61,873 bases of DNA from a virus. Below are positions 29,201 through 53,304 of this stretch, one piece after another. The stretch lies in IMG/VR virus record IMGVR_UViG_3300025083_000021, positions 1-61,873 of that record. One strand, given 5' to 3'. Each line of letters starts with the position of its first letter. The first letter of the stretch is position 1. A program made the position numbers and the translations under genes. The notes under the pieces were generated by a model, which was given only the letters and a program-made list of their open reading frames with translations, made no database searches and was not told where the DNA came from.

Positions 29201-32200
29201 TGTATCATCACGTTGCATGAATAAATAGTTTACTCTAAAGTTTTCAAAACCTTTTAATATACTTTGAAGTAATAATGGATTTTTAATTTTTTCTGGTAAT
29301 GGATTATCAGACTCTATAACTTCAATGCCATTATCACCAATAGTATCTAATAGCATTCTATTTACAACAGCTCCTGTATTTGGATTATCCTGACCAAAGT
29401 AATACATGTTCCTTAATATCTCTTTTGAATCACTTAAGTTCTTTACAGCTTTTAACATTCCGTTATAAGCATCCATAAATTCAACAGGAACAATCAATGG
29501 TCTACCTTCGCTTAGTTCTTTGTTACCAAAGTAATCTACATCCTCTAATGTAGTAGTTGCTATATAAGCTCTTATACCTTCAGCAAGACTAGCAAATCCA
29601 CCAATCATTGATGCATCTTTATTAAACTGCTCAACAGTTCTTAATCCAGCTTCACTTTCAAAAAATTCATTATCAAATTCTTGATCTGCGCTTTGTTTAG
29701 TTATTATACTAAGTAATGAATTTACATCTTTTTTAATCTCGGATCTGTATAGTTCAAATGATTTACTAACATTTTCAAGTTGTTCTTTTTGAATATCAGA
29801 TTTATCATCATTAATCTCATTATCTAAACTATAAAGCCACTCAAACTCATCAAGAATATTATTTAAAATTTCCTCTGGAGTAATGTCTTCAACTTCTTCA
29901 ACTTCTTTAAACTTTGATTCAAGTTCTCTTAATTTTTTTGCTTGTGTTTGTGATGAAACATCTGTTAAAAATGTAGCTGCTATTGATCTAATCATCGGCT
30001 CTGCAATAGCACTATCCAAATATAAATATCCTATATTACGGTCTCCATCTTTGTTTGTTTCACTAACAAAATCATATGGAATTAATGCATTAGCTTCAAC
30101 AGATACACCCTCAATTAGATTTGTAGTAAAGTTATTATTTTTTACAGAAGCTGTTCTAAATTTACCAGAATCTATATTTTCAAAAAGAGTTAATAGTTCA
30201 TTCTTAGTATATGAATTAAATAATGCTTTTATCCATTCTAATATTCTATTGAATAATGATTTAATACTAGAATCTGTTTTAGTAGATCTTGGATTTTGTT
30301 TAAATAATTCAAACTCATCAGCCATGTATTCTTCAAGATATTCTTTTTCTAATCTTGAATCACTCATATCAGAATATGTATCTGCAGAGTTTTTAAATCT
30401 TTCTAGTTCTTTTCTATAGCTCTTACCTTCTTTTCTTAACTTAGCTCTAACTTCTCTTCTAGCAATAGATAAATATTTTGCTTGTTGTTCGTCTGTTAAA
30501 AGTAATCTATATACAGCATGGAATCCTTCATGATATTTAAATGGATTTGTAGCTCCTGTATATATAGTACCGTTGATAGTTAGACCACCACCTAAATTAT
30601 ATAATCCTAATGCAAAAGCACCAACACGAACACCGCCAGCTTTCATGTTATTACCTAATGTATTTATATCATCAATAGTAATAAAATCAGGTAAATTTGA
30701 TTTAGCCCAAGATTTAAATTCTTCAATATCAGCATTAGCTTGTTCAGTTGTATTTGCAGGTAATATTTTATTTGCAGCATTTAATTCATCTTCTGCTTTT
30801 CTTATTTTTTCTTTTAACTTAATTACCCGTTCATCTGTCCTCATAGCTTTAGCTATAGCAGGACCGGTTAAATCTTTAGTAACTTCAGCTTTAAGTACAT
30901 TAAGTTGTTCTTTTAAGTTTTCTAATCTTTGATCAGGTGTAAATTCTTCAGCAACTTCAGGTGCAGCTTCAACAACTCTTTCTACTTGTTGTGGTTCAGG
31001 TTTATCAATAGCTGCTTGAGCAGATTCAACTGGAACTTTTACACTTTCGCTATTAGTAGATATTGAAGCATCTATAATAGCCTGTTGTCTTGCAGAATCA
31101 GCGTTTATAAATAATCTTGGTCTAGCAATAACATCATACTGAACATTAGTTGTTGTTTTATCAAGAATCTCTTGAACACCGGCATCTATTGGAAAAGATT
31201 TTCTAAAGTTATTAAATGATATTTTTTGATCTTCTGTAACTTGATTATTAAACTTTTCTAATAGTATATCCATTTTATCTTTAGCAGATGAGTCTGCCAT
31301 TAAATCAGATATTCCTAAGTATGCAGTTTGTATAGTCTTGTATTTATTTTGACCAACACTTTGTCTTAATTGTAAATTTATTTTACCCCATGGACTAACT
31401 TGTAGTTCATATCTATACCCTTTAAGAGATGATGAAATAAATAATGAATCTTTAATTTCAGAATTAAATTCTTTATTATAAGCAATATTTTTTTCTTTAG
31501 CTTTTTCTAATTGCTTTACTGTTGTATCATCAGTAACTTCAACATCTAAATTTTCTTGTGTTGTGAGCATTGCTCTATCAACTACACCAATAAATAATTC
31601 ATTTAATTCATCACTATTAAACTGTTCAGTTTTTAATGGAACAAGTTTATATGTTCCACTAGGTAATAATACAGCTAATGCATACTTCTCAGTAATATTA
31701 GGGTTAGTAAAATTATTATTCTCATCTATTTCACCAGCTTTTTCTAAACCTTTATTAACTTTATTTATAAGTTCAACTGCTGCAGCATCTTGAAGATTTG
31801 TACGTTCAATTCTTGTTTTATTCTTTCCTTCTCCTTGGATCTGAATTATAACTTTATTACCAAATTCATCTGAAGCATTGTATTTTAACTCATCTGCTTT
31901 TTGCGGATTAGCAGCATCAAAAATTAAACCATCAATTGATTGATCTAAAGTAAAACTTTCTGATAATCCAGATAAAGGAATAAAACCATTATAGTCAGAA
32001 GCTAATGATTCGGTTGATGTGCTAAGTAATTTATTCTTTGCAAAAGATTTAATAATAATATCTAGTTTTTGTTCATCAGAAATATTCTTACCTTCTTGTA
32101 TTTTGCTAAAGTCAATTACATTTTTAGCTTGATCAATAGTAAAGTTTATAGGATCTGATACACCTTCAAACTCATAATTATCATTTTTAAAATAGGCAAA

Positions 32201-36631: not shown

Positions 36632-39600
36632 TTATTTACTACCGTTCATCTTAACGTCTCTTGCTTTTTTCTGATCATTCATGTTTTTATTTACTTCAAA
36701 TGCAGTAAATATTGTTTCATTCATAATTTTATCAAATTGCAAACCTTTATCTGACTGACCACGTAAATCTATAATTCTAGACATTTCTTCCGTAGGTGTA
36801 TATTGCCCGCCATCCTGATACATATTAAATTTATAAGTAACATAATAATAATCATCAGCTGGTTTGGTTATTGAATAATCACCTGTAGGCATACTATCAA
36901 TACCCGGATATTTTTTATCTACAAAGTTATTTGTACTAAGTTCTACTTCACTCATTAATGGCGAATAATATTCTTGTGATCTTGCTTTAGGATTAACATC
37001 TTCTTGTTGATCAAAAATTATAGTAATACCATCCTGAAGAGCTTCTATCTGATCACTTGTAAATACACCTGTTTCAAAACTTTCTCCACCTTTTTGAAAA
37101 GAATTTAACCATTGTGCATTTGGTTTTATTGTAATACTAGCTTTTGATTTTGTAAGATCATCAGTTGAACCAAATACAGGACTATATTCTAATTGAAATT
37201 GTGGTACATTCTTAATACTGGTTTTAGTTGCTTTATCTGTTGTCAAATAAAAATTAACATTATCAGCAAGAACATCAAATAATTTATTAGCTAAATCACT
37301 TTGCTTTAAATAATCTTCTTTACTTTCAACTTGATCTCCTACTACAATTCCATATTTAGAACCTCTTGATTCAAGACTATTCTTTTGCATTAAAAGCCTA
37401 ATAAAGTCTTCTTTGGCATCATCAGACATTGAAGCAGGATTTACATCTGTTGCATATATTGGATATGGTTCTAAATCATCATCTTGTCCAGATCTTCCCC
37501 TTCTAGCATCTAGTAGTGAAGGAAGACCAGCATAATTTTTACTATTTTTTAATTTATTATTTAATATTTTATATGCTCTCCTAGCATCATTTTCAATAGT
37601 AACTTTATCTAAAGTAGTAGAAGGTCTAGCACCTGATCCTAAGTCTCTTATATCAGTACTTTTATTACCTTCATTATCTACATATACTTGTAAAGGTGCT
37701 GCACCGCCAAGAATCTTAGAACCAGTTCTCATTACCCCAGAAGTTTCTCGAATTATATAATCAGAACTTGATGTACCTTTATCTATACCGTATAAATCTA
37801 CATTTGTTAACTTACCTTTTTCTGCTAATTGTAAAGCTTTAGCAATATATTCTTCTTCTGATACTTTACCATTTTTATCTATAATATCTGGAAAACCAGA
37901 CTCTAATAATAAACGTGAATTATCTTTACCTTTACCGGCTAAAGTTTCTTTTTTAACATTTTGATATAATTTTAAAACTTCATCATTAGCAGAGGTAAAA
38001 TTTTTATATAAAGCATCTTCTTGATTAGATATGCTATTCATACCATGAAGTTTATTATAAAAATTTGTATACTTTGAGTCTGCAATTAATGAAGGATGTT
38101 GTTTACTTGCCATACTTGCACCTTCTTGTTGATCTGTAAAGCTGGTAAAGTTATCTATTTCTTTTTCTATAGCATCAATGTTTATATAGTTACCAAATTC
38201 ATCTTTTGCTTCTAATGCTTTTCTTATTTTTTGTAGTGATCCGCTTACAGTTTCTCCATTATCTAATGTAATCGTATAGGAGCCGGTACCTCCATCTCCT
38301 TTTGGATTAAACATAAGCTTACCATCTATTATGGTTTCTATCTTTTGCTGAAGAAATTTATTAGAATCTTCACTATATATTTGTGCATTTTCTAATTGTT
38401 TATCGCGTATTATTTTACCTTCATCATCTACAGCAGCTAATATTTGTGATGGACCTCCTGCTTTAGCTTTTCTTTGTCCTAACAAATCAACAAGCATTTT
38501 TTGCCTAGGATCTAATATTTCACCTTTTTCCATAGCTAATTTTCTTTTATTAGCTAAATCTAAGTCTGATCTATATTTTATTAATTCTTTTGCACGTCGA
38601 TGCCTAACTTTATCTCTTTTAAGTTCATTAACTTTATAATCTAAATTATAATCACGCATACTAAAATCACGTGCAGCTTTAGTTAAATCACTACCAATAC
38701 TATTCATCAAAATTAATTGATAAGCTTTTTGTAATGTACCATTATAATCTTTAACAGGAGTTTTTGAAACATCTTTAATATTCTGCATAGATGCTAATGC
38801 TGCTTTTGTAGCCTCATATGAATTATACTGTTCTCTCATTATTTTTTCATCTTGAGAACCAGGTATAATACCATTATTTTTTGCATATGTCTCCCAATTA
38901 GTTACACCATTAGCTTCTCTCTGTAAAGCTTTGGTTGTCTTTTGCATTAAGAAATCATTTTGTTTTCCAATAAGATCAATAGTTTGTTGGGCCCATGCTT
39001 GTTGTCCTTCTTGAATAGATGAAAACTCTCCTGTTCTAACTCCTTCATCAGCAAAGTCTCTTCCTTTAACAAATGCTTGAGTATAATAAGCTCTCTGAAC
39101 TGCAGGATCATCAATAAATCTATTCTTAATCATTTCTAAAGCTGGTCCTGTAACTAACTCACCATTGGTTTGTGTTATAATAAAATCAGCATCTGTATTA
39201 AAACGTCTATTTTTACCTTCGCCTACAAATAAATTCATAGGTGCGGTTATCTTTAATGGAGGATCTAGTTCAGATAAATATTTTTCTGCCATCTGATATA
39301 GATTAACATCATCAACATACCTTGGCATTCCCATAGCAAGAGCAGCATCACCAGATGCATTTTGAAAATCTTGCATCTTATATTGTAAATCTTTTATACC
39401 AGTTTCCCACCATTTACCTCTTTGTTCTTCATCAGGAGAATCAAGCAATCTATTTGCATATGCCATTTCATTCTGATAATTAGTGGTATATAACATGTCC
39501 TTTACAAGAAGATCATCTTCATAAAAAGGTGCAAATACAGCTTTTGCAGAATCAACATTTTGTTGTATAGATAAATCTAAACCTGATATTTTTTCAATAG

Positions 39601-39820
39601 AAGGTTTAATCTGTTCTATATATTGTTCTCTCTTATCTAAATTATCTTCTCTAGATAAAGGCGCATAAACAATTTTACTATATAAGTCGTTTGTTGCTTG
39701 CCAGTTTCTATTGTATTTATCTTGTCTAGATTGTAATACACTAGATAAAAATTTATAATCTGGAGTAAACGGTTTAATGTCTGGTAAATATGTTTCTACT
39801 CCTGGTACGTATGTTGACAT
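36632..39820 (-). CDS. Cargo-type virion protein, crAss-like
   Basis: 1062 aa, directly upstream of the giant polypeptide. The N-terminus (MSTYVPGVETYLPDIKPFTP, then DYKFLSSVLQSRQDKYNRN) is of the type seen in crAss-like tail/cargo proteins that fill the tail barrel. The body is helical and soluble with repeated aromatic/charged segments and no catalytic motif I can place. By synteny it corresponds to the cargo protein found between muzzle-region genes and the RNA polymerase in p-crAss001. It probably travels into the host with the RNA polymerase. There is a 59-nt gap upstream with no clear promoter motif. Confidence 0.7.
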   Translation of the reverse strand: MSTYVPGVETYLPDIKPFTPDYKFLSSVLQSRQDKYNRNWQATNDLYSKIVYAPLSREDNLDKREQYIEQIKPSIEKISGLDLSIQQNVDSAKAVFAPFYEDDLLVKDMLYTTNYQNEMAYANRLLDSPDEEQRGKWWETGIKDLQYKMQDFQNASGDAALAMGMPRYVDDVNLYQMAEKYLSELDPPLKITAPMNLFVGEGKNRRFNTDADFIITQTNGELVTGPALEMIKNRFIDDPAVQRAYYTQAFVKGRDFADEGVRTGEFSSIQEGQQAWAQQTIDLIGKQNDFLMQKTTKALQREANGVTNWETYAKNNGIIPGSQDEKIMREQYNSYEATKAALASMQNIKDVSKTPVKDYNGTLQKAYQLILMNSIGSDLTKAARDFSMRDYNLDYKVNELKRDKVRHRRAKELIKYRSDLDLANKRKLAMEKGEILDPRQKMLVDLLGQRKAKAGGPSQILAAVDDEGKIIRDKQLENAQIYSEDSNKFLQQKIETIIDGKLMFNPKGDGGTGSYTITLDNGETVSGSLQKIRKALEAKDEFGNYINIDAIEKEIDNFTSFTDQQEGASMASKQHPSLIADSKYTNFYNKLHGMNSISNQEDALYKNFTSANDEVLKLYQNVKKETLAGKGKDNSRLLLESGFPDIIDKNGKVSEEEYIAKALQLAEKGKLTNVDLYGIDKGTSSSDYIIRETSGVMRTGSKILGGAAPLQVYVDNEGNKSTDIRDLGSGARPSTTLDKVTIENDARRAYKILNNKLKNSKNYAGLPSLLDARRGRSGQDDDLEPYPIYATDVNPASMSDDAKEDFIRLLMQKNSLESRGSKYGIVVGDQVESKEDYLKQSDLANKLFDVLADNVNFYLTTDKATKTSIKNVPQFQLEYSPVFGSTDDLTKSKASITIKPNAQWLNSFQKGGESFETGVFTSDQIEALQDGITIIFDQQEDVNPKARSQEYYSPLMSEVELSTNNFVDKKYPGIDSMPTGDYSITKPADDYYYVTYKFNMYQDGGQYTPTEEMSRIIDLRGQSDKGLQFDKIMNETIFTAFEVNKNMNDQKKARDVKMNGSK

Positions 39821-39879
39821 AATATAAAATTAATCAAATTTTTTAAGTTTAACAAAATAAATCATAACACTTTTAAAGT

Positions 39880-42432
39880 TTACAATTCTACTCCCATCTT
39901 ACCTGAGTAAAATGGAACTGCCATTTTTTTGGTTTCTAATCCATTCTTTGCACGTCTGTTTAATAATCCAGATGCCAATGCTTGAGCTAATTCTTGCTGT
40001 CCCATTGTTGAAAAGTTATTCGCTGCTGAGTTACCTTGACCTGTAAATTTTAAATAATCTTGAAACGTTGGCGCTTTAGTTTGTCCTGTTGATCTTTGAA
40101 ATTTAGAATAAGCGTCAAAAAATTGTTGTTGTCTTTTATTCTGATCAACTACTGGAGCAGGTTGAAATGCTTTAGGACTTGTAAAATCTATAATCCCACC
40201 TGTAAGAGGGTTAATATTAAATTGATCAAACAAAGGATTTATGTTTGCTGTATATGCTCTATTAGTAATAGCTGCATTCTGCAACTCTGCATTTTTAGCA
40301 ATCTTCCAATTCTTAAAGTTATCAGCAGCTTGTAGCGCTTTATTTGTATCATCATAAACACCTATAGTGTTTCTTTGATTTATTAAATCTACTTGCATAT
40401 CCATTGCAGCTTGTCTACCTGCAACTGAATTCATAGTTCTAACATTATTCTGATTTACTGTATTAATAGTTCTAGCAATATCTTTTAATGTATTCCCCTG
40501 TATGTTTGAATTAGCAATAGCTGCTGCTCCACCTGCTGTTCCTAATGCATTAGCTATTGTATTTTGAGCACCTAATGCTGCATTAACACCATTCCTAAAA
40601 TCATCTAATACATAATCTATTTTAACAGGAGCCATATCAGGTCTCCACGGTAAATATAAATTATCATCAGTTAAGTTAAGTGCTTGAAGATTATTTACAT
40701 CTTGAATCCACCAATCTGTTTGTGGATTAGGAGCTTTATTTACATTTGGTATTTTATAATCTACCTTTTCTTTAATAGGAGGATCTGAATCTAATATAAC
40801 TGTTTCACTATCTGGTTCAGTTACATCTAAGAATTGATTTAAAGTATTATTACCATAAAAGCCATCTGCTCTTGAAATAGTATTATTTTCAAACCAGTTT
40901 GTTTTTTGAGAAGGTCCTTCTGCTCTATAAGATAAAAATGGATTTTTACTTTCTTTATCTTCTATTGCAAGTGTTTGGAAAAATATTTGATTTAATTTAG
41001 TATCTTCCTCATTAATATTATATCCAGAATACTTATTAAAAAGATCTTGTGAATTTTTATTTTTAGCACCTTTATCAAGTTCTTTTGCTAATCTTTCATC
41101 TTTACTAGCAGCATCTGAAATAATATAATTATTTTTTTGATAGTCCAAAAACTTTCTAACCATATCTTCTTTAGATGGAACATTTTCAATACCTCTTGAT
41201 TTTGCTGATGCAACAAAACCTGTATATGCTCTATCAACAGTATTCATCCATTGCGGATCATTGGATGTAAATAACCTTTCTAATTTATTATATTTATCTA
41301 CACCTTTTAGATCTTTATTAGCCGCTTGTTTTTCAACTAATTTAATAATAGTTTGACCTTGTGCATTTTTAGTTTTAACAACATCATATCGTCCTGTATT
41401 AAGTTTGTTTTGAAACTCTTGACGTTTAGGATGTGTAACTGGTAATGGGTTAGCAGGTATATCTGCGGTCTCTTCTGTTGTCTCTTCTTCAGTACCTACA
41501 ACTTCAGCACCTTCTGTATCTTCAGGAAAAAGCATAGAACCATATTGAAAAGCATCTTCTTCAGATAATTGTTCTCCTCCTTCTTGAGCCATTGGTATTT
41601 CTGTACCGTATCTAGCCATGCCTTCTTCCATAACAACCGCTTCATCATCATTATCAACTTGACTCATCAGTTGCTGAAGCATCATTACCTGTGCTTGTCT
41701 TTCAGGTGGCAATGCAGCCATTGCATCCATTTGTGCTTGTTGCTGAGTTATCTTTTCTACATTAGCTGTAAACTCAATAGGGTTTTCACCTAAAGATACT
41801 ATATAAGGATGAGAAGCTAATGGAACACCATCCTGAAATTTTTTCTTTTCTTCTTGTTTAAAAGCAAGTTTAGATAAACCCATACTGTATTTATTCTTCA
41901 TAAGGTCTACACTTCTTTTTGTTATATCATCTGAATGCTCATCATTTATAGCATCATATAACTTATTTAGTGGATAGTTTTTTGAAATCTTAGCTGGAGT
42001 TTTTTTCTTCTTACTGCTTATTCCAAACTCTGCCATTTCTTTTTTGTCAAACTTCATTTTATCTGTATCAGAAAAAACAAATGATCCTTCAGGTAAAAAC
42101 ATTGGAACACCACCTTTAGAATGTCTTGGTCCCTTTATATCATATAAACCAAACTCACCATCATTATTAAGATCTGTTAATACAGTTTCTCCACCCTCTG
42201 CTTCTATATTGGCTTCATCTCTAGGTACACCAGATAAACTATATCTCACATCTGCTTGACCTTCTTCATTAAAAGCTACACCAGTATAATAATCTTGTGG
42301 TACAGTTATTAAACCGTAATCATCTTGATCACCTGTAACCATCCCGCCATTTTTCATAGTATTTTTTTGAACTACAGTATTACCTTTTAATTCAAAACCT
42401 TCTGGTAATTTATTTATTTTTATTTTAGCCAT
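39880..42432 (-). CDS. Tail/virion protein with AEGGE-type N-terminal module and P-x-A-Q-x-G motif
   Basis: 850 aa. The N-terminal 140 residues contain ANIEAEGGETVLTDLNNDG, then KGPRHSKGGVPMFLPEGSF, a compact beta module that recurs in virion proteins of Bacteroidota phages. Residues 279-286 read IPMAQEGG, the short motif shared with the two neighbouring proteins. The middle is acidic and disordered (TEEETTEETADIPANP). The C-terminal half is Asn/Gln-rich helices, ending FYSGKMGVEL. It has no transmembrane segment or enzyme motif. It lies between the cargo protein and the 653-aa protein, whose stop is 2 nt from this ATG, so it belongs to the tail operon. Function unknown; structural or chaperoned cargo. 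Confidence 0.7.
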   Translation of the reverse strand: MAKIKINKLPEGFELKGNTVVQKNTMKNGGMVTGDQDDYGLITVPQDYYTGVAFNEEGQADVRYSLSGVPRDEANIEAEGGETVLTDLNNDGEFGLYDIKGPRHSKGGVPMFLPEGSFVFSDTDKMKFDKKEMAEFGISSKKKKTPAKISKNYPLNKLYDAINDEHSDDITKRSVDLMKNKYSMGLSKLAFKQEEKKKFQDGVPLASHPYIVSLGENPIEFTANVEKITQQQAQMDAMAALPPERQAQVMMLQQLMSQVDNDDEAVVMEEGMARYGTEIPMAQEGGEQLSEEDAFQYGSMLFPEDTEGAEVVGTEEETTEETADIPANPLPVTHPKRQEFQNKLNTGRYDVVKTKNAQGQTIIKLVEKQAANKDLKGVDKYNKLERLFTSNDPQWMNTVDRAYTGFVASAKSRGIENVPSKEDMVRKFLDYQKNNYIISDAASKDERLAKELDKGAKNKNSQDLFNKYSGYNINEEDTKLNQIFFQTLAIEDKESKNPFLSYRAEGPSQKTNWFENNTISRADGFYGNNTLNQFLDVTEPDSETVILDSDPPIKEKVDYKIPNVNKAPNPQTDWWIQDVNNLQALNLTDDNLYLPWRPDMAPVKIDYVLDDFRNGVNAALGAQNTIANALGTAGGAAAIANSNIQGNTLKDIARTINTVNQNNVRTMNSVAGRQAAMDMQVDLINQRNTIGVYDDTNKALQAADNFKNWKIAKNAELQNAAITNRAYTANINPLFDQFNINPLTGGIIDFTSPKAFQPAPVVDQNKRQQQFFDAYSKFQRSTGQTKAPTFQDYLKFTGQGNSAANNFSTMGQQELAQALASGLLNRRAKNGLETKKMAVPFYSGKMGVEL

Positions 42433-42434
42433 AA

Positions 42435-44396
42435 TTATAAAAAACTTATATCTGCACCTGCTGCAATTAATTTAGCAAGCATATCTGAATCTACTTCAAT
42501 TTCTCCACCTTCTTTATAAAACTCTTCTTGTTCTACTTCTCTTAACTTTTGCATAAACGCATTTATATCCATTCCTGTTTGTGCTTTAGGTAATTCATGA
42601 ACATATCCCATCTTATCCATTCTAACATGATCTTCATATTTATCAGCTTTATAACCTTTACCTGTTTCAGGATCATACATTATATGAGGTTTAAACTCAC
42701 CACCCTTTTTCATATTAGCTTTAATATTCTCTTGAACTTCTGGAGGTAAAGCTCTAAAACCTGGATTATCTATACCACCACCATATTTGGTTACACCTGA
42801 TGTATTTCCCATATAAAGTCCTGTAACATAATCTGCTTCAGGTGCATCATAGTATGGGCCTCTAAATCCTCTTTTATTAAATGGATCTGCTGCAGTTGCA
42901 TAACTTTGATCAGCTATCAAATTAAAATCTCTTTGTTTTTCTGCTTCTCTATATCTTATATCTCTATTAAGTTTATTAAACTGATTAAAAACATTAAATG
43001 CAAGATCACCCATTTCTCCGTAACCTTCAACAAATCTACTATCCATAATTCTATTAGCAAGACCTTGAAGTTTATTTGTTCTTTCTACTTCAGGAGGTAC
43101 AAAACCCGTTGGTCCAGAAACATTTGGATTTCCAAATCCAGTATTAATAAATGAATTTGTATTAAGATTTTGAAAAAACTGTGAACCCATACCAGAACCA
43201 GTACCCATTTGAGCTTTAGGTATATCACCACCATAAGCCATTTCTAAAAAGTTTTTAGTTGCATTTGGAATATTCACACCTAAATTAAATCCTGAAGTCA
43301 TTGACTCTTCTATTTTCTTTTGTTTTTCAAGTTCTTCTTCATAATCTGGAGCTTTGGCAATCGGTCTACCATATTCATCATATCCAAATGTAGTTCCTGT
43401 TTGAATACCTTCATCTGTAAAAGATTTCAATGCTTCACCTTTTGATGCATCAAATAATCTTTGTGGTGTTATTTGATATTCATTAGGATCATTAGGATCT
43501 AGTTTAATATTATAATCATAATAATTTGGTATTCTTTCTTTTTGATTAGCTCTTTTTGATTTTATATCTCTAAAGAATCCATCTTTTAAACCATCCTCAT
43601 CTTTATCTTTACCACCAAATAAACTTGAATAAGCATCAGCTGCTACATAAGCTGCTTCTGCTAAACTAAAATTGTCATTTGATCCTCTTAATAAAATTGG
43701 ATCAATATATCTTGGAGAAGATATCCAATTCATATTTCTACGTATTCTAGGATCATTTGTACCACCTCTCTGATACATTTCCATACCATCTTCAGCTTTA
43801 CCCATTGCTTCTTTAATAGCTCTATCTCTATTTTCTAAGTATGCCGCCTCACCTTTTTCACCACCGTATTCAGCTTTATTCCAGCCAGCTGCATTCTTTG
43901 CAAAGTTAGCCATTTTTACTATAGATGGTGGGTATTCATCTGTATTAGCCATAACTTTATTGTATGCTTGTTTAACAGTCATACCACGTTGTTTAGCCCA
44001 TTTAGTAAACTTACCTTTATTTTCTGGTTTTATTTCTATACCGGATTTTGCTAAAAGAGTTTCTTCTGCTAAATCTACGTCACCTTCTTCTTCTTGCATG
44101 CTTTGCATTCTTGCAAGTTGTTCTGGGTTTTGTGTAACCTCTTCTCCTGTAGGTTCTTCTTGTTCAATGTAATCTTCTGCTCTTTGTAATAATGGAACTA
44201 TTTCTTCCATTGGCATTTCCATTAAAGTTAATGCTTGTGTAATAGTTGCTGCATCAACTTTATCTTTTCTAAGTTTGATTACAACTTCAATAGGTTGCAT
44301 TCCCTCTTCCATTGAAGAGTTTATCATTGATGCTAATTGTTGAAGTTCTGGTTCTATTTGTTGACCGCCTTCTTGTTTCTTTGATAAATAGTTCAC
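42435..44396 (-). CDS. Tail/virion protein with two P-x-A-Q-x-G motifs
   Basis: 653 aa, starting with GTG (no ATG between an in-frame stop and the GTG). The N-terminal third is acidic and helical (MINSSMEEGMQPIEVVIKL, AEDYIEQEEPTGEE). A module KFTKWAKQRGMTVKQAYNKV looks like a small helical domain. Then come YGGEKGEAAYLENRDRAIKE, and later IPKAQMGT (392-399) and LPKAQTGM (602-609). The C-terminus EGGEIEVDSDMLAKLIAAG repeats an EGGE theme. A candidate late promoter sits about 22 nt upstream at 44418-44433, so this gene may head a separate transcript of the cargo genes. No enzyme motif is seen. Confidence 0.7.
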   Translation of the reverse strand: MNYLSKKQEGGQQIEPELQQLASMINSSMEEGMQPIEVVIKLRKDKVDAATITQALTLMEMPMEEIVPLLQRAEDYIEQEEPTGEEVTQNPEQLARMQSMQEEEGDVDLAEETLLAKSGIEIKPENKGKFTKWAKQRGMTVKQAYNKVMANTDEYPPSIVKMANFAKNAAGWNKAEYGGEKGEAAYLENRDRAIKEAMGKAEDGMEMYQRGGTNDPRIRRNMNWISSPRYIDPILLRGSNDNFSLAEAAYVAADAYSSLFGGKDKDEDGLKDGFFRDIKSKRANQKERIPNYYDYNIKLDPNDPNEYQITPQRLFDASKGEALKSFTDEGIQTGTTFGYDEYGRPIAKAPDYEEELEKQKKIEESMTSGFNLGVNIPNATKNFLEMAYGGDIPKAQMGTGSGMGSQFFQNLNTNSFINTGFGNPNVSGPTGFVPPEVERTNKLQGLANRIMDSRFVEGYGEMGDLAFNVFNQFNKLNRDIRYREAEKQRDFNLIADQSYATAADPFNKRGFRGPYYDAPEADYVTGLYMGNTSGVTKYGGGIDNPGFRALPPEVQENIKANMKKGGEFKPHIMYDPETGKGYKADKYEDHVRMDKMGYVHELPKAQTGMDINAFMQKLREVEQEEFYKEGGEIEVDSDMLAKLIAAGADISFL

Positions 44397-44417
44397 TTTG
44401 ATAATAGTTAGATTACA

Positions 44418-44433
44418 CTATTAATATACAAAT
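44418..44433 (-). promoter_or_regulatory. Candidate late promoter before 653-aa tail gene
   Basis: On the minus strand ATTTGTATATTAATAG stands 22 nt before the GTG start, in the 59-nt gap after the lysozyme gene. It is identical over TTTGTATATTAAT to the copy at 12930-12945. Confidence 0.55.
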
Positions 44434-44455
44434 AAATAAAGTAAATTACTAATTT

Positions 44456-47044
44456 TTAACCGTTTGGATTCTTCAAAAGATAAGTCATTATATAGTTAGG
44501 AGCAGACATGCCAAACTGTTTTGCATTTTTATAATGTATTCTGTTAAGTTTATCGTAAACTTTTTGAGCTTCTATTTGATCAGCTTTATTATCAAAATCT
44601 GAATTTATATAACTTTTATATAATTCTAATTCTTCTACTTCCCCACCCTGTCTTTTAATATTAGGTATCTCCATTAAAGTTTTTTGAAAATCTTTAACCC
44701 TAACAGGAGTTTGTTTATACCAATTGCTATCAGCAGCTTCTTTAGCTGCTTCATTATACTTTCCTTCTTTAAGTAATTTCCAAGTATTTTTATGTTCTTT
44801 ATACCAATTTTTTCCTAACTGAAAATTTACAGATGCTAATGCATTAATTAATCTTTCATCAGTATTACCTATTTCTTCAGCTTGTTCTATTGCTGCATTA
44901 TAAAACTTTTTTGTATCTTGTTCAAACCATCTATTTACTTGTTCTTGAGGAATAGATGTTCCTTTAGGATATTTTCTTTTTTCAGCTTCTGTAAGTAAAT
45001 GACCAATACCTCCTGTTAATTTACCCTCACTATCAATATAAGATCTCTTACCTTTCTTCTCTGTAAATCCTTCTCTTTGTTTTATAAGCTCTGTAGCAGG
45101 TTTAAACATTTCATAACTAAATGTATCATAAAAAGGTTTGCCTGGTGCAAAAAGATTTTCCATAGCAAGCTTTCCTGCAAAAGTTTTATACTCTTTTGGT
45201 TCAGAAATAGGAACATTAAGAGTTTGATTTATTTGTAATGTTCTACCTCTTATACCTGGATTGGCTTTTATAAACTGATCTTTACTTACACCTAAACTGC
45301 TAGCCAATTTATTAGCAATACCATCAAATGTATCTCCTGATTTAACTGTATATTCACCACCCGTTTGAAGTTTAGCTATTAACCCTTTTGTTTGAGATTC
45401 TAAATCTTTTGGTATATTAGCATCTATCCATCCTTGAGGTAAATTTTTTCTTCTTGCTATATCAATAAATTCTTCTGCAGTATCAAATCCATAATTATTA
45501 CCATGTATGTTTACATATCTAGAAAATTCTTTAGGTTCTTCAATATCTGAATATTTATAAGCTTCTTTTGGTACTGGTCCTTGACTTTTAGGATATACTT
45601 TTACTGGGTCATATACTGGAAATACTGAAGCATCATTATCGGCATTACTTCTATAAAATTTCCATTTATCTGGTTTTATATTTCTATGTAATAATACTGG
45701 AGGAGCATCTTCACGATAAATAGTATTTACACCATGTGTGCCAAAAAGATCTCCTACTTGTATTAAATCTTTATTAATAACTTTATTTCTATCATCTAAT
45801 GATCCCATTTTAATAGGACCATCATTATCTGGAAAAGTATTATACAAATTTCTAGCGCGTCTGTTTGCATAATCTGGATTAAAATTTTTAAAAACTTCTT
45901 CTATATTTTCATTGTCAATAAATCCTGACTGGACAAGTCTATCGGAATAATACGGTTTATAGTCAAATTCACCATCCCCAACATTTTGCTCATAAAACTT
46001 TGCCTTTAAAATAGCATTATTATATAAAGCTAAACTGTCCTGAGTTGTAGCTCCACCAAATTGTGCTGTAGGTAAAGCTTGACCTTGTTCATCCATAGCA
46101 ATAATATTCATTAGATTTATAAGATCTTTTTCTGATTTTGTATTACGTAGTAAATCTTGAAAGTGTTTGTTTAATTCTATTCTTGTGTTTTCTTTTGCTT
46201 TCTGTAAGTGTTTTTCTGTAAAGTCTTCAGTTCTTGCATCATATATACCTTCCTCTTGTAATAAATATCTAAGAGGTTGTAACCTATTAATATATTCAGT
46301 GGGTTGTGTATAGTAATATTCTTCTTTAGGTATACCTAAATCATTGTCTTTTAATGTAGACATTAATAAATCTTTTGTGGGTTGTGGTATTCTCTTTCCA
46401 CCTTCATCAGCTGCATGACCCATTTCATGTAAAGGTATTGTATTATAACTCCATGGTCCTTGTCTACCTTTTGAATATTCAGGTCTTAACATAATCATAC
46501 CCGGATACTCATCAGCATCATATACACCTTGTACATCACCTGGTGTAGGAGATATATCACTTGATTCAGGAAGAAATCTTACAGGTGTATTTCTTAAGTT
46601 CATCAAACGTGCTCTTCTTTCATTTGCTACTTTATTAGCATCATACGCACCTGGCATAAAGCCGGTCATTTCTTTACCAAGTCTCTCTAAATACTTATCA
46701 GATCTTATGTAAGAATCAAACCAGTTTCTTTGCTTTTGTCCCTCTTCATTCATTTGACCTCCACGCTGAGCCATTGGTACTTCAAATACCATGTCACCAG
46801 GAAACTTATAATCTTTACCTGGTTTCATTAGTTTTGTATTACCTAAGTTATCTGTTCCTATAACAGGGAAGTCTACACCCTTCATTGTAATATTACCAGA
46901 AGGTATAACATTAAAAGGGTTATTTACATCAGGACTATCAGCTTTATAACCATCTACGGAAAACATTCCAGTTACATAAGTAAACTGTTCGTTTGGCCCA
47001 CCTGGTAACCCTCTACTTTCTTTATGCTCAAATTTTCCTTTCAT
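44456..47044 (-). CDS. Virion-associated zincin, LysM and T4-type lysozyme fusion
   Basis: 862 aa multidomain protein. An N-terminal virion module ends at VPMAQRGG (89-96). Next is a metallopeptidase-like domain with HEMGH at 206-210 (NTIPLHEMGHAADEGG). LPTAQFGG (324-331) follows, then a region with VLLHRNIKPDKWKFYRSNA. A LysM domain begins about 565 (YTVKSGDTFDGIANKL ... LQINQTLNVP) directly after LQTGGE. The C-terminal third is a GH24 lysozyme: REGF with E658, YIDSEG with D671, LTGGIGHLLT with T677 match E11, D20 and T26 of T4 lysozyme. Together these would bind and cut peptidoglycan and possibly peptide links during DNA entry or virion maturation. It overlaps the 2086-aa gene by 1 nt. It is the only recognisable muralytic enzyme in the window and might double as endolysin. 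Confidence 0.88.
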   Translation of the reverse strand: MKGKFEHKESRGLPGGPNEQFTYVTGMFSVDGYKADSPDVNNPFNVIPSGNITMKGVDFPVIGTDNLGNTKLMKPGKDYKFPGDMVFEVPMAQRGGQMNEEGQKQRNWFDSYIRSDKYLERLGKEMTGFMPGAYDANKVANERRARLMNLRNTPVRFLPESSDISPTPGDVQGVYDADEYPGMIMLRPEYSKGRQGPWSYNTIPLHEMGHAADEGGKRIPQPTKDLLMSTLKDNDLGIPKEEYYYTQPTEYINRLQPLRYLLQEEGIYDARTEDFTEKHLQKAKENTRIELNKHFQDLLRNTKSEKDLINLMNIIAMDEQGQALPTAQFGGATTQDSLALYNNAILKAKFYEQNVGDGEFDYKPYYSDRLVQSGFIDNENIEEVFKNFNPDYANRRARNLYNTFPDNDGPIKMGSLDDRNKVINKDLIQVGDLFGTHGVNTIYREDAPPVLLHRNIKPDKWKFYRSNADNDASVFPVYDPVKVYPKSQGPVPKEAYKYSDIEEPKEFSRYVNIHGNNYGFDTAEEFIDIARRKNLPQGWIDANIPKDLESQTKGLIAKLQTGGEYTVKSGDTFDGIANKLASSLGVSKDQFIKANPGIRGRTLQINQTLNVPISEPKEYKTFAGKLAMENLFAPGKPFYDTFSYEMFKPATELIKQREGFTEKKGKRSYIDSEGKLTGGIGHLLTEAEKRKYPKGTSIPQEQVNRWFEQDTKKFYNAAIEQAEEIGNTDERLINALASVNFQLGKNWYKEHKNTWKLLKEGKYNEAAKEAADSNWYKQTPVRVKDFQKTLMEIPNIKRQGGEVEELELYKSYINSDFDNKADQIEAQKVYDKLNRIHYKNAKQFGMSAPNYIMTYLLKNPNG

Positions 47045-50000
47045 TATCTTCTAGATAGTAATAGTTTAGTATTATGTAATCTGAGTAACATCTTTCTATC
47101 TAAAGAATTTGTTCTTCTTAATAATACATGGTTATAGTAATGTCTAAACTTCTTATGTTGCAACTGTGCTTTATTATAATTAAGATTTGTAGGATTTAAG
47201 TTTCTTATATATCCATTGCACTCTGTATCAAATATAGCTTGTTGTGCATTTGTAAATTCACCTCTATCATTTGTAATATCATAGAATTGATTGAATCTAT
47301 ATTTCTGTTCTACTTTAGAACATAGTATCTCAAAACTATTAGTGTTAATAATAGGATAGCTTAGTTCTAAAATAGGATTATTAAATGGTGTAGGAATTAA
47401 CTTTAACAAACCAGATACTTGCTCATTATTATAAATGATTGACTCGTCAAAGTTAAAGTTTAGATCTTCCCATCTATCATCACCACATGCATAATGTAAG
47501 TCTCCTTTATATACATATGTTTCTAATTGATATTCAATACTTCTAACCGTATTTACATTTTGACCTGAGTTCTCAATTAAATCAATTTCCCATGGATATG
47601 CAACATCATAGTAATTAGCAAAGCTATCACATCTTGCATTATGTCTCCATAAAGTACCAATCTCAAAACTTGGTTTTGTTGTAAATGCTTCAGAATAATA
47701 ACAAAGTTGCGGATCTAAGTTTACGTAATCAGGATCACCTACTTCATAAATATCATCACATGTTCCAGTTATATAAGTTGGAAGACTTGGATCAAGTGAT
47801 GGTGGGCATTCACATATGACCTTTCTACATATAGGATAGTAATCTAATGATAATGGTCTTTGAGGAACAGGAGAAGTAAAATAACCTGTTGTTATATCTG
47901 GATAAACTAAAGTATAACCTGGATTAAAACATTGAGCAGTCCATAGTGTACTACATAACATATCTGCTAAATAACCAACTGTACTCAATATAGTATATGC
48001 ATCAGGAATTTCAGGACTAGTATTTTTTAATGGAACTAAAAATTGTTTATCGTCAGTTGCATATGGTCCAGTTGTACAAGTTAATGCATTTATCATATCC
48101 TGGAAATTTGCAGGTACAGCTGATGAATTTTCATAAACACCTACACCATAAACTTCTTGATTAGGAATTGTATTTTGCATTTGACATGCAAGTGGTGTTG
48201 AAAGAACAGTTGCCAGTCTACTTAAATGTATTATCTTTTGTTCAAAACCTGTAGTAGCAGATCTATCTCCTAACTGACTACCAAGATTAGGTGGATTAAT
48301 AGCTTTTATATCAATTAAATCTTGAGCTCCCTGAAGTGTTGCTGGCATATTTTGGGTAGTTACCGCACCTGCTCCTTGTGCATCTAAAATAGAATGCCAA
48401 ACAGGATTACCATAAAAAGGATCACCAGGAGTTTCATTTTGTAACCAACCCATTAATATAAGTATTTTACTTACACTATCAAGTTCTCTAGACATTGAAT
48501 ACTTATTAACACCTGTTATTAATTCAAAATCAAAAAATGTTGTAGCAGCATGATCAGATGTTGTTTCTGATGTTAATAAAATTCCAACCTGAAGATGATT
48601 ATTAGACATCAACCATCTAGTTTCAGAATCTTGCAACCATTGTGATAAAATACTTAATTGAGCATATGCACTTGATGCAGTATCATTTGGATTACCTGCT
48701 GCAGTTGATGCATCTAAAGTAAATACAACATCAATCGGACAACCTGTACGTTGTAAATCAACGTCTTCTTCAAGTACTGTTACAATAGACGGAGTACTTT
48801 CACCTTCTATCTTTTCACATAACTCTGTAGATGGATTATAATTATATCCTGGAGGACATTGTGCTATATCTGTAGGTTTAGTTTTTGTTGTAAAGAAATG
48901 ATTTATACTTGGTAAAGAAAGTTCTGGACACCAATCATGGAATGATATCCAAGCTTTTGCTTTGGGATCATAACTAACTGTCCAACAACAATCATCAAAA
49001 TATGCAGGATCACCTATTTCAACAGGAAAACTATATCTACCACTATCTGAATCAATTGATATTATAAACCCTGTTTCTTCTGTATAAGATACTCTGTTTA
49101 AATACTCTTCCTTTATTTTAAAGTCTTTCTTCATAAAGTATACTATATCATCATTGATATCATATACTGATTGGCATCCTATACCTACAACAGGATTATC
49201 TGCTAGTTTAGAAAACTCTAACTCTGGAAATTGTTTTATTAAATTAGATGGTAAATATTTATTAAACCACCATTTCATACCTTGATTAGAAATTGGATCT
49301 AACCCCTTACCTGAATACTGAAATATTTTACCTTGTGCTTGAGATATATAAAATAATCCTGAAGGAGTACTAATAACACTTCTCATGCTTTCGTTAGATC
49401 CATACTCATTTGCTATTTCAGAGTTTGCAACATTTTGCATTGCTCCTTTAAATAAACCTCCATCTCCAATAGTAACTTTATTACCTAGCCCAGTTTGCAA
49501 TTGATCAACACCAGGAAGTATTCTTGGTGATTGATATGGAAAAAACATAATAGCACCAGTTCTATTCATTGGTTTTATTACACTTATCTTATCTTTAAAA
49601 TCTACATAATTTAAAGGTAAGAATACTCTCCAGTAATCTTTTCTAGCCTCTTGCATAGATCTTAAAGAATATATCAATCTCTTAGGACGATATACATAAC
49701 ATTCTTCAGCTGTATAAGGATCATAGTATAAAGGTTGTATTTCACCAAAGCCTGATAATTGTGTTGGAAATTTTGTTGCACTTAATGATTCATCATACTT
49801 ATAAAAATTATCTATCTTTTGTATCTCTGCATGGAATAAAGCAGTAAGATCATTATAAGTATATGTATCATATATTCTTGCAGCTGGTCTATCTTCCCAA
49901 TCTCTATAAGCTAAATTATATTCTGATTCAACAAAGAAATCTAATACACCATTTACGTGAGTATACATATATGCATAAACCATTGCAAATGCAGGATTAG

Positions 50001-53000
50001 GATCGCCACCTCTATTAAAAATATCAAGCGGATTATTTACACATGTATTTGATCCTCTATCTAAATAAAATTTATCATTTGGTAAATTAAGAATTGATCC
50101 TCCAAAAAATAAATTACCAACATCTATTAATTTACTAATATCATATTTTGTAGAATCTAACCAAAATCTTGGATAAGGGATATTAACATGCTTTGAATAA
50201 TCATATGAAAACTCATCAGGTTGACCTAATAAATACTGAGCAAAAATTGGCATTATTACTTTTTCAGTATATCTACCTATATAAATATCACCACTAAACA
50301 TAAACTCACTAGTAAGTTTAAGTTCTTCTGGTTTTGTAAAATCAATATATTGTATACAATCTCTCATTGGTATTTGTTTAATACCACTAAGCTGTCCATA
50401 CTGATTATCTATATTAAACTTTAATGCACCATAATGTGCAGAAATAGGTCTCTTTTGTTGAGTGTTTATAAATTCTCTATAAGTAGGATCATAACCAACA
50501 ACTTGACCATTTTTGTCAACAGAACCACTAATTTGAAATCTTGATGTGTCTTCTATACTAGGATCATCTATTTCTCTATCTAAAGAAACAGCTACAGTAG
50601 TTGGTCTAAATAAGTTATTTATTTTATACTTACCTTCATCAAATAATTGAAATGATTGACCTATATAGTTTGAATCATTATTTTTAGATCTAAATGTATT
50701 TGAATAATCTATAGGTTTAAATTCAGTAAAAAACCCGTGTGAATTATATTTTAATGCAAAATCTCTTAATGATAATTGATTATATATAAATTCTATTAAT
50801 TCATCTGCACCTATTGATATATATGTAGATGACATTGCTAAACCAACAACACCTTTAAGCACAGGATCTAAATTTGAAAAATCACTATCTTTTGTTGTAC
50901 TTACTCTATAAAGAGTTGGTTGTACACCCGCACCAGCAACAGAAACACTTGCAGCAAGTTGAGTACCAAACCAAGTAGTATTGGCTGCACTAGTTCCAGC
51001 ACCTCCTGAAAATAAATCAGCTAGATTTGTAATTGCACTTCCAGTTCCATCAGTTTGTAGTATATATACTGCTGTACCTGGTTCTGCAGCTGCGTTAACA
51101 ACACCAGCAGCACCAGCAACAAAATCACCACCGCCAGCTTTTGATGCACTTTGCTGTTCTATTTTACGTGTACCATTTATTTTCTTTAATGCATATCCAA
51201 AACCAGCAATAAGACCAACAACTACTGCTACATTTCTAAGTAACTTAAATTGCGGATGGTTTTCTGATGCTTTAAAACTACCAGATGAATTACCATGCAT
51301 CTCACCATATATCTTTGTTTCATAAGCATTTAAAAATGGTTTAAAGAACATGAGGTCAGGAGAAGCAAAAGTAAATACATCATTAGTGTACCCTGATAAA
51401 GGAGGATACTCTTGTATACTTTCAGCATAATTATGACAATCTTCAGTTACAACATCATCATCATTACCTCTATCAAAAAAGTATGGATCAGGTCTTAAAT
51501 CATTATAAGGATAGTTAGGATATAATCCTTGTACATTTCCACCAATTAAATTATCTGCATTAGGTATTCTATACTTACGCATATTTCTAAACAACCCTTT
51601 TGCAAGAATTGACTTAGCACCTAGTCTAGAACCTCTAAGTATTTCATAACCTACTACATTTGGTATATATGTACCATCATTATACTTTGGTCTACCTATA
51701 TTAGTAAACTCTACCCCAAGTATATTTATAAAGTCACCATTATCTGAAGTTATATATAAAGGAGAGTTTGGACCAGTACCTTTTTCTTCACTTGGAAACT
51801 TATGATGTCTAATTGGTTTACCACATAAATCAAAATCTGGATTTGTAGTTTCACCAATATTTATACCTGTAGCTGGGTCAACATATGTTGAATCCCAAAC
51901 TTCTGGTTTATCAGCAGAATATCTTTCGGTAGATTCCCAATATGCCATTTCACCTCTAGCTGTAATGGTTGATCCATCTAATTGAGGAATATTTAATGAT
52001 TGAGTTATTGTTCCTGTATTATATATTTTATAAACCTCTTCTCCGCTTGTATTAATAAGATTATCTCCTACTACATCTGGTCCTAATATAACATCTGTTT
52101 CTTTCTTTACATCTCCATTAGGTAATGTAAAATCTTTTGCAGGTCTACCAGGTATATGATATGAGCTTGATCTTTCTCCTGTATTATAAATCCAACGGAT
52201 AAAGAATGCATACTGCTCATCACGCATAAAACCTAACTTATTACCAGCTAAATTATAATACTTAGCAGGTAACCTGTTTGTTACCCAATTTACTTTTATC
52301 TGATTTGCTATAGGTTGATAATTAAAATCAAATTGTTCTGTTGGCCCTTGTCTTATTAAATAATCATTAACAACATACATTGCTTCTGATTTCTCATATG
52401 CTGGACTTCTTTGAGGTAATAATGTTTGATCTATTGATTCAAGTTGATCACTAATAAAATCAATATTTATTTCTTTTGTTTGAGTGCTGTAAAGACCTAT
52501 CTTTTTTGTAAACGCTTGTCCTTGATTTCTTTGATATATAACTAATTCAAAAAATTCATAATCAGTATCTAAGTTACTTATCTTAATATTCAATGAAGAA
52601 CTAGAACCTTCGTGGCTCCAAACTGATTGTAAATTAGATATACCAATATAATCTGTTACTCTTGCTTCATTTTCAACATAAGCAATAAAAGCTTGATAGG
52701 TTCCGTTTCTTATTAAACCTCCATCTTCAGCTTTAGATAATGAAACACAAGGTGTGTTTAGTAATGGAGCCAATCTAATTTCCTCACAATCTAATCTATC
52801 TGTATCAGTACATGTTACACAATCATCTATTGTTTCACAATCTTGAATCCAAGGTACATTATCAATGTTTAATGTACGTGATGGATTATTAGAATCATCC
52901 CAATATACTTGCCATGTACAATCAAAGTTTTCTTTAGCTGCACCTGATATAAGAAACTTTTTATTAAAATTAAGACATGGATCATTTACAAGCGTTGTAT

Positions 53001-53304
53001 ACTTACATTCACTATCATCAAATATACCTATCTCAGAATTAATATTATCTGTAGAATATATAACCCATTTATCACTATATAACTTTATAGCTCCAATTAT
53101 TGTATATGGTATTTCTCCACATGAAAAGTTTGAAGGTTCATTTCCTATAACACCTAGATCTCCATCAGTAGAATTATTAGCTGCATTACGTGCATGCCAC
53201 CAACTCTGATTAGGCTCCATAGATTGAGTAATATCCTTATTCATACCTTTTATAAAGGTATTAGTATTCACACTAGATGATGATGCTGATGTTTTCTTAG
53301 CCAT
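47044..53304 (-). CDS. Muzzle-type tail protein of crAss-like phages, with vWA-like domain
   Basis: 2086 aa. The N-terminus (TNTFIKGMNKDITQSMEPN, then the WWHARNAANNSTDGDLGV segment) and MRDEQYAFFIRWIYNTGERS followed by YHIPGRP are hallmarks of the large crAss-like tail (muzzle) protein. A hydrophobic insert near residues 690-760 (VVVGLIAGFGYALKKINGT, then Ala/Gly-rich) may be a fusion or membrane segment. From about 1522 a vWA-like domain begins (CPIDVVFTLDAST, D1525), with later VYGVGVYEN; its MIDAS DxSxS is incomplete. The C-terminal part is Cys- and Tyr-rich. By synteny it forms the distal end of the tail around the connector rings. It starts 14 nt after the connector gene stop and overlaps the lysozyme gene by 1 nt. 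Confidence 0.82.
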   Translation of the reverse strand: MAKKTSASSSSVNTNTFIKGMNKDITQSMEPNQSWWHARNAANNSTDGDLGVIGNEPSNFSCGEIPYTIIGAIKLYSDKWVIYSTDNINSEIGIFDDSECKYTTLVNDPCLNFNKKFLISGAAKENFDCTWQVYWDDSNNPSRTLNIDNVPWIQDCETIDDCVTCTDTDRLDCEEIRLAPLLNTPCVSLSKAEDGGLIRNGTYQAFIAYVENEARVTDYIGISNLQSVWSHEGSSSSLNIKISNLDTDYEFFELVIYQRNQGQAFTKKIGLYSTQTKEINIDFISDQLESIDQTLLPQRSPAYEKSEAMYVVNDYLIRQGPTEQFDFNYQPIANQIKVNWVTNRLPAKYYNLAGNKLGFMRDEQYAFFIRWIYNTGERSSSYHIPGRPAKDFTLPNGDVKKETDVILGPDVVGDNLINTSGEEVYKIYNTGTITQSLNIPQLDGSTITARGEMAYWESTERYSADKPEVWDSTYVDPATGINIGETTNPDFDLCGKPIRHHKFPSEEKGTGPNSPLYITSDNGDFINILGVEFTNIGRPKYNDGTYIPNVVGYEILRGSRLGAKSILAKGLFRNMRKYRIPNADNLIGGNVQGLYPNYPYNDLRPDPYFFDRGNDDDVVTEDCHNYAESIQEYPPLSGYTNDVFTFASPDLMFFKPFLNAYETKIYGEMHGNSSGSFKASENHPQFKLLRNVAVVVGLIAGFGYALKKINGTRKIEQQSASKAGGGDFVAGAAGVVNAAAEPGTAVYILQTDGTGSAITNLADLFSGGAGTSAANTTWFGTQLAASVSVAGAGVQPTLYRVSTTKDSDFSNLDPVLKGVVGLAMSSTYISIGADELIEFIYNQLSLRDFALKYNSHGFFTEFKPIDYSNTFRSKNNDSNYIGQSFQLFDEGKYKINNLFRPTTVAVSLDREIDDPSIEDTSRFQISGSVDKNGQVVGYDPTYREFINTQQKRPISAHYGALKFNIDNQYGQLSGIKQIPMRDCIQYIDFTKPEELKLTSEFMFSGDIYIGRYTEKVIMPIFAQYLLGQPDEFSYDYSKHVNIPYPRFWLDSTKYDISKLIDVGNLFFGGSILNLPNDKFYLDRGSNTCVNNPLDIFNRGGDPNPAFAMVYAYMYTHVNGVLDFFVESEYNLAYRDWEDRPAARIYDTYTYNDLTALFHAEIQKIDNFYKYDESLSATKFPTQLSGFGEIQPLYYDPYTAEECYVYRPKRLIYSLRSMQEARKDYWRVFLPLNYVDFKDKISVIKPMNRTGAIMFFPYQSPRILPGVDQLQTGLGNKVTIGDGGLFKGAMQNVANSEIANEYGSNESMRSVISTPSGLFYISQAQGKIFQYSGKGLDPISNQGMKWWFNKYLPSNLIKQFPELEFSKLADNPVVGIGCQSVYDINDDIVYFMKKDFKIKEEYLNRVSYTEETGFIISIDSDSGRYSFPVEIGDPAYFDDCCWTVSYDPKAKAWISFHDWCPELSLPSINHFFTTKTKPTDIAQCPPGYNYNPSTELCEKIEGESTPSIVTVLEEDVDLQRTGCPIDVVFTLDASTAAGNPNDTASSAYAQLSILSQWLQDSETRWLMSNNHLQVGILLTSETTSDHAATTFFDFELITGVNKYSMSRELDSVSKILILMGWLQNETPGDPFYGNPVWHSILDAQGAGAVTTQNMPATLQGAQDLIDIKAINPPNLGSQLGDRSATTGFEQKIIHLSRLATVLSTPLACQMQNTIPNQEVYGVGVYENSSAVPANFQDMINALTCTTGPYATDDKQFLVPLKNTSPEIPDAYTILSTVGYLADMLCSTLWTAQCFNPGYTLVYPDITTGYFTSPVPQRPLSLDYYPICRKVICECPPSLDPSLPTYITGTCDDIYEVGDPDYVNLDPQLCYYSEAFTTKPSFEIGTLWRHNARCDSFANYYDVAYPWEIDLIENSGQNVNTVRSIEYQLETYVYKGDLHYACGDDRWEDLNFNFDESIIYNNEQVSGLLKLIPTPFNNPILELSYPIINTNSFEILCSKVEQKYRFNQFYDITNDRGEFTNAQQAIFDTECNGYIRNLNPTNLNYNKAQLQHKKFRHYYNHVLLRRTNSLDRKMLLRLHNTKLLLSRR

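Follow-up and report, generated by a model that had tools for sequence, protein, structure and literature searches.

The closest described counterpart of the proteins considered here is the cargo protein C1 of phage crAss001 (gp45; PDB 7qog), in which the segment of residues 214-245 lies on the tail rings and that of residues 425-552 on the portal (PMC10172136); in the paper on this structure the words "cleav" and "proteol" do not occur (PMC10172136). A second point of comparison is provided by the polyvalent proteins of phages and plasmids, which are delivered and for which autoproteolysis has been proposed (Iyer et al. 2017, PMC5512222). In that work, DdrB of phage P1, a polyvalent protein, is given as cleaved before packaging, and the zincin-containing vRNAP of phage N4 as packaged uncut (PMC5512222). 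Head proteins of phage SPN3US, including the abundant E proteins, are cut at the motif AXE (PMC10052503). Both phage proteins that are modular and delivered, and maturation directed by a motif, are already known.

The locus analysed here comes from the viral record IMGVR_UViG_3300025083_000021, whose whole stretch of 61,873 nucleotides is referred to below as the window. On its minus strand lies a gene of muzzle protein (47044..53304; Pfam crAss_MUZ, E=1.7e-28), and downstream of it four adjacent ORFs (36632-47044, minus strand) encode proteins of 862, 653, 850 and 1062 aa, which together account for about 17.5% of all residues predicted in the window. Similarly to C1 of crAss001 (PMC10172136), these proteins are encoded after the muzzle gene and look modular and cargo-like; unlike in crAss001, the cargo functions seem to be divided among three or more proteins that bear hydrolase modules. 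With the polyvalent proteins (Iyer et al. 2017, PMC5512222) they have in common a large multidomain build, zincin and ART modules and module shuffling, but the portion of that work considered here describes no common linker motif, whereas in the present proteins a motif is constant and the zincin is optional. The similarity to the prohead-protease sites of SPN3US (PMC10052503) lies in a short motif common to several proteins of the head or of the ejected set, and in putative N-terminal propeptides; our motif is different, and no prohead protease was found among ten capsid-block and nearby proteins of one relative. Two proteins of Cellulophaga phage phi4:1, gp040 and gp041, which are annotated from virion MS/MS, are motif-bearing homologues, and we infer that the motif carriers are modular ejection or virion cargo proteins.

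An earlier note on this DNA had described the motif [ILV]PxAQxG in three adjacent virion proteins, and all five of its copies were found at their residues in the window translations (all features of the carriers given below are on the minus strand). IPMAQEGG (41575..41598) occupies residues 279-286 of the 850-aa protein. IPKAQMGT (43200..43223; residues 392-399, preceded by YGGD) and LPKAQTGM (42570..42593; residues 602-609) belong to the 653-aa protein, and VPMAQRGG (46757..46780; residues 89-96) and LPTAQFGG (46052..46075; residues 324-331) to the 862-aa protein. No further [ILV]PxAQxG was found in the remaining predicted proteins of the window. The recurrence is thus real, but the form was drawn too narrowly: our scan of the predicted window proteins gave Q-x-G-G as a broader core behind all five copies, and this core is also present in the 1062-aa protein. 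It occurs eight times in the window, exclusively in the four adjacent ORFs, and is absent from the window muzzle protein. The relaxed copies are LQTGGE of the 862-aa protein (45353..45370; residues 559-564), QEGG (44364..44375; residues 8-11) and QRGG (43761..43772; residues 209-212) of the 653-aa protein, and QKGG (37085..37096; residues 909-912) and QDGG (36806..36817; residues 1002-1005) of the 1062-aa protein. The fuller motif often reads [YG]GG-x(0-3)-[LIV]-P-[KM]-A-Q-x-G-[G], and its loose version is [AMYKF]-Q-x-G-G.

The arrangement of modules is best seen in the 862-aa protein (44456..47044). From its N-terminus it comprises a beta domain, a motif copy, a zincin-like region (46091..46741; residues 102-318; match to PHROG 24249) with HEMGH at residue 206, a second motif copy, an uncharacterised region, the relaxed LQTGGE copy, LysM and lysozyme. 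The earlier claims that two copies bracket the metallopeptidase and that LQTGGE directly precedes LysM both hold, as residues 89-96 and 324-331 flank the region 102-318 and residues 559-564 abut LysM (565-612). In the family of this protein the N-terminal beta domain is conserved (predicted with confidence at about residues 30-92) with the motif at its end, and the position of VPMAQRGG is conserved across 15 related sites. Beyond the beta domain, variable SLT, LysM, lysozyme, YkuD, peptidoglycan-binding, ART-PolyVal and zincin modules follow. This multidomain architecture of polyvalent type, with SLT, LysM, YkuD, lysozyme and ART-PolyVal modules varying across homologues, is accompanied by homology breakpoints. 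A Foldseek search with the low-confidence model of the 862-aa protein returned nothing at E<=0.001, its weak matches to T4 lysozyme fitting the lysozyme module, and neither the 850-aa nor the 862-aa family gave a match when its profile was searched against PDB sequences.

The 653-aa protein (42435..44396) is composed of helical modules with motif linkers between them. Its N-terminal QEGG is well conserved (Q8, G10 and G11 in at least 90% of the sequences of set A3), and its KGKFT module is common to crAss phage proteins at 34-48% identity. The C-terminal signature GGEIEVDSDMLAKLIAAGADISFL (42438..42515), within residues 628-653, is present also on other proteins of related phages. A tail of the form GGE...(L/I)xxLIAAGADIEIL, noted in the window and in the loci L051, L055, L064 and L067, ends 51 of 984 gene products (8 of 20,360 random cuts), in four phages on two different proteins, and may possibly be a targeting signal. 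Another module, MMYDPxTGKGYKA...MGYxHE, present at about residues 567-600 of the 653-aa protein and in the locus L089 (3152-4540 and 7327-7722), has a counterpart in Methylophilales phage Melnitz (42% identity over 81 aa), in which MPLAQFGG occurs in a protein other than the carrier of this module.

The 850-aa protein (39880..42432) is proposed by us, on the basis of gene order and inspection, as a putative counterpart of C1. The gene neighbourhoods match, a portal-domain-like HxxGG...GExVFSD segment can be recognised by eye in the 850-aa protein, and GG elements near ordered segments are a further common trait, but a search with the family profile failed to recover the PDB sequence of gp45. 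In its homologues the Q283 of IPMAQEGG is invariant (16 of 16, set A4) and marks the border between a conserved N-terminal part and a highly variable region. Direct tblastn searches of the phage collection with the 850-aa protein and the 1062-aa protein (36632..39820), the fourth QxGG carrier, gave no match.

With the muzzle gene as an anchor, 77 related viral contigs were gathered by aligned muzzle proteins, and the motif was counted in 167 non-redundant proteins (142,178 aa) encoded just downstream of this gene and in 403 control proteins (126,039 aa). The strict form, [ILVM]PxAQxG, occurs 61 times in the former, as compared to a mean of 0.30 (maximum 2) in residue shuffles, 0.50 in shuffles within 20-residue windows and 5.25 (maximum 12) in doublet-preserving shuffles. 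None of the remaining 119 orders of the same five elements gave more than four matches, and the control proteins contain no strict copy. The flanking sequences divide the 61 sites into 35 clusters that are unrelated to each other. That Gly- and Gln-rich proteins could produce such a motif by chance or composition can be argued from the loose form, whose background they do raise: 226 QxGG were found in the 167 proteins against 53-92 expected (54 by residue shuffles), and in the controls the count was at expectation. The strict motif, though, outnumbers the matches in every shuffle, with the permuted orders and in control genes, which refutes an artefact of this kind and leaves it a negligible probability.

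The density of QxGG per 1000 aa is 1.7 in the first gene after the muzzle gene and 3.0 in the second, 0.2 in the muzzle protein itself and 0 in the four genes before it. Where the downstream sequence reaches 1500 aa or more, as in 61 loci, the strict or the loose form is always present, the strict one in 34 of them. In five near-complete relatives and in Leptolyngbya phage Lbo-JY46, searched piecewise, the strict motif was found only in genes that closely follow the muzzle gene. Two further arrangements were seen in related loci: a zinc-ribbon-like module CxxC...CxxCGG with the motif on one or both sides (L024, 15994-16455; also L012, L016, L034, L040 and L048), and small proteins built largely of MGG, CGG and QxGG repeats (L098, 5358-5660; L058, 536-1138).

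Shuffling of modules at the motif sites might also be expected if the motif were a DNA-level element, a recombination or regulatory site translated by accident. The codons of the motif, in contrast, match the background, and between copies in a given phage the synonymous codon is identical in 117 of 240 cases, very close to the 117.9 expected, so that selection acts on the peptide. The codon test largely refutes the DNA-level explanation, which we consider very improbable.

At the protein level, the motif sites are positioned at module edges. The median distance from a site to the nearest end of a local alignment between proteins is 3 aa, compared with about 20 aa for random positions, and 69% of sites are within 10 aa of such an end vs. 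38% of random positions (maximum 52% in 300 trials), although these values are upper estimates, since the motif itself can lengthen an alignment. Nine sites were inspected in AlphaFold models of the 653- and 862-aa proteins, and every one of them lies in a segment of pLDDT<50. This class takes in 45% and 61% of the residues of the two models, respectively, whose overall confidence is low (57.7 and 47.6). Those segments include 197-239 with QRGG, 330-430 with IPKAQMGT and 596-609 with LPKAQTGM in the 653-aa protein; in the 862-aa protein the last strand of the beta domain ends within VPMAQRGG (85-90) and pLDDT<50 begins at residue 93. The motif sites of both proteins are accordingly predicted to lie in flexible or disordered linkers. 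Between sites, distances of 160-240 aa are over-represented and those shorter than 40 aa under-represented.

Predicted disorder and a module-edge position are also what would be seen if the motif were a passive hinge, i.e., a Pro/Gly spacer flexible enough for modules to pass through a narrow tail, and copied during module shuffling. The N-terminal tag MxK[VI][KR]IxxLP of C1-like cargo adds to this, as its internal copies in two loci, which follow AQMGGE (L070, residue 215; L083, residue 294), resemble gene fusions; the same tag was seen at C-termini of +1 proteins in L058, L063 and L080. A spacer, however, needs a composition and not the fixed order L-P-x-A-Q-x-G, against which the 119 permuted orders gave at most four matches and the doublet-preserving shuffles about five (vs. 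61), and recent copying of DNA has left no trace at synonymous sites. A linker of a purely passive kind is disfavoured, and we regard the hinge explanation as unlikely. A peptide whose order stays fixed in contexts that are unrelated and disordered implies some reader, and the motif is probably a linear motif read by some partner, perhaps a protease or a docking site, during assembly or infection.

One way of reading the motif is docking, in which the peptide, in an extended form, would bind a site that recurs on the tail barrel, the portal or the muzzle, so that flexible cargo is pinned before ejection. There are about two sites per protein whatever its length (rho 0.22, p 0.15), and copies are found in linkers and also at termini, some of them at the very N-terminus; KVKIKxLP elements, which are related, occur at C-termini. 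Different proteins of one phage can also end in the same conserved tail. The precedent is C1 of crAss001, which is held by short segments, and AFGG/AYGG elements adjoin them, at about residues 208, 426 and 561 of gp45, beside the cryo-EM-resolved segments 214-245 and 425-552. This coincidence is suggestive only, as it concerns one protein and a pattern picked post hoc. The wider pattern [AKRL][YF]GG is enriched downstream of the muzzle gene in crAss001-related loci, mostly in C1-type proteins (29 vs. 7.6 expected), and in their muzzle protein (11 vs. 3.1). On the other hand, the resolved docked segments of crAss001 are helical or folded and our motif lies in predicted disorder, and gp45 and its relatives have no strict motif despite the same tail type. 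Among 33 loci collected from closer relatives of crAss001, two of which had no usable muzzle ORF, the strict form was absent and QxGG was at or below expectation. The enrichment over shuffled sequences that the earlier note had proposed to look for among related phages therefore holds for the muzzle-anchored relatives (61 vs. 0.30-5.25) and not for the crAss001-related loci, and the strict motif is the mark of a sister clade of crAss-like phages, to which Lightbulbvirus and Leptolyngbya phage Lbo-JY46 belong. We consider docking a serious, if tentative, candidate.

The leading mechanism, with docking next, is proteolytic processing, to which we give somewhat greater, though still tentative, credence. 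The motif would be a short linear recognition sequence in flexible linkers that join swappable modules of ejection or cargo proteins, and a protease acting in trans would read it. Cutting during assembly, inside the particle or after ejection might separate the carriers into modules or trim N-terminal leaders, and might free peptidoglycan-degrading and other enzymes from docked or threaded parts. Module-edge sites, exposed linkers and N-terminal copies were counted in favour of processing, and the cleavage of P1 DdrB (PMC5512222) and of SPN3US head proteins at AXE provides precedents. Counted against it were the copies close to N- or C-termini, where cutting frees little, the number of sites, which does not scale significantly with protein length, the packaging of N4 vRNAP uncut despite its zincin (PMC5512222), and the mentioned silence of the crAss001 structure paper on cleavage. 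A more specific version, in which the ejection machinery of the clade consists of modular precursors that a phage-encoded protease would cut at LPxAQxG(G) into interchangeable enzymes and tail plugs, is possible but rather doubtful.

No protease tracking the motif distribution was identified. The zincin adjacent to the motif, suggested earlier as a possible processing enzyme, probably is not its protease, because most relatives have no such zincin: HExxH is present in only about 14 non-redundant downstream proteins, as against the motif in 61 of 61 loci. A better candidate for a trans-acting protease would be the zincin-like HEGFH (30518..30532, minus strand) of the giant 4462-aa virion protein, although nothing links it to the motif; zincin-like HExxH is present in giant virion proteins of all seven genomes examined, and a Pfam family search with the 4462-aa protein gave no match. 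Among ten capsid-block or nearby proteins of one relative (G007), none matched a protease family and several matched no family. In another relative, a 387-aa protein with HELLHIAFGH (L093, 14825-15985; G003, 74825-75985), encoded beside an ATPase gene resembling that at 170-1441 of the window, is a possible metallopeptidase. The adenovirus protease and SUMO/Ulp1 act at GG-X processing sites. Q-x-G-G resembles these sites, but the likeness is of three letters only and the strict motif often has no second G. The GG that is invariant in substrates of GG-X proteases (C5/C48) is not preserved, since in many strict copies G is followed by N, F, L, M or K, and no such protease was detected; a search of 20 records with PF02902 (C48) gave no match, but none was found in control genomes either, which makes this blank result uninformative.

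A description of the motif was not found in the open literature searched, a scope that leaves aside subscription journals and supplements, and the earlier statement that no function had been described agrees with this. The anatomy of the motif is well supported, and the functions proposed for it are tentative. Its role can be tested in cultured Cellulophaga phages. Motif-directed cutting, if true, would be a maturation system not known in crassviruses. In the cargo proteins of environmental relatives, the motif is a conserved punctuation mark that flags module borders in proteins hard to annotate otherwise. Since few gut viruses are as abundant as the crassviruses, it offers a concrete, mutable handle on the packing, order and release of their cargo.
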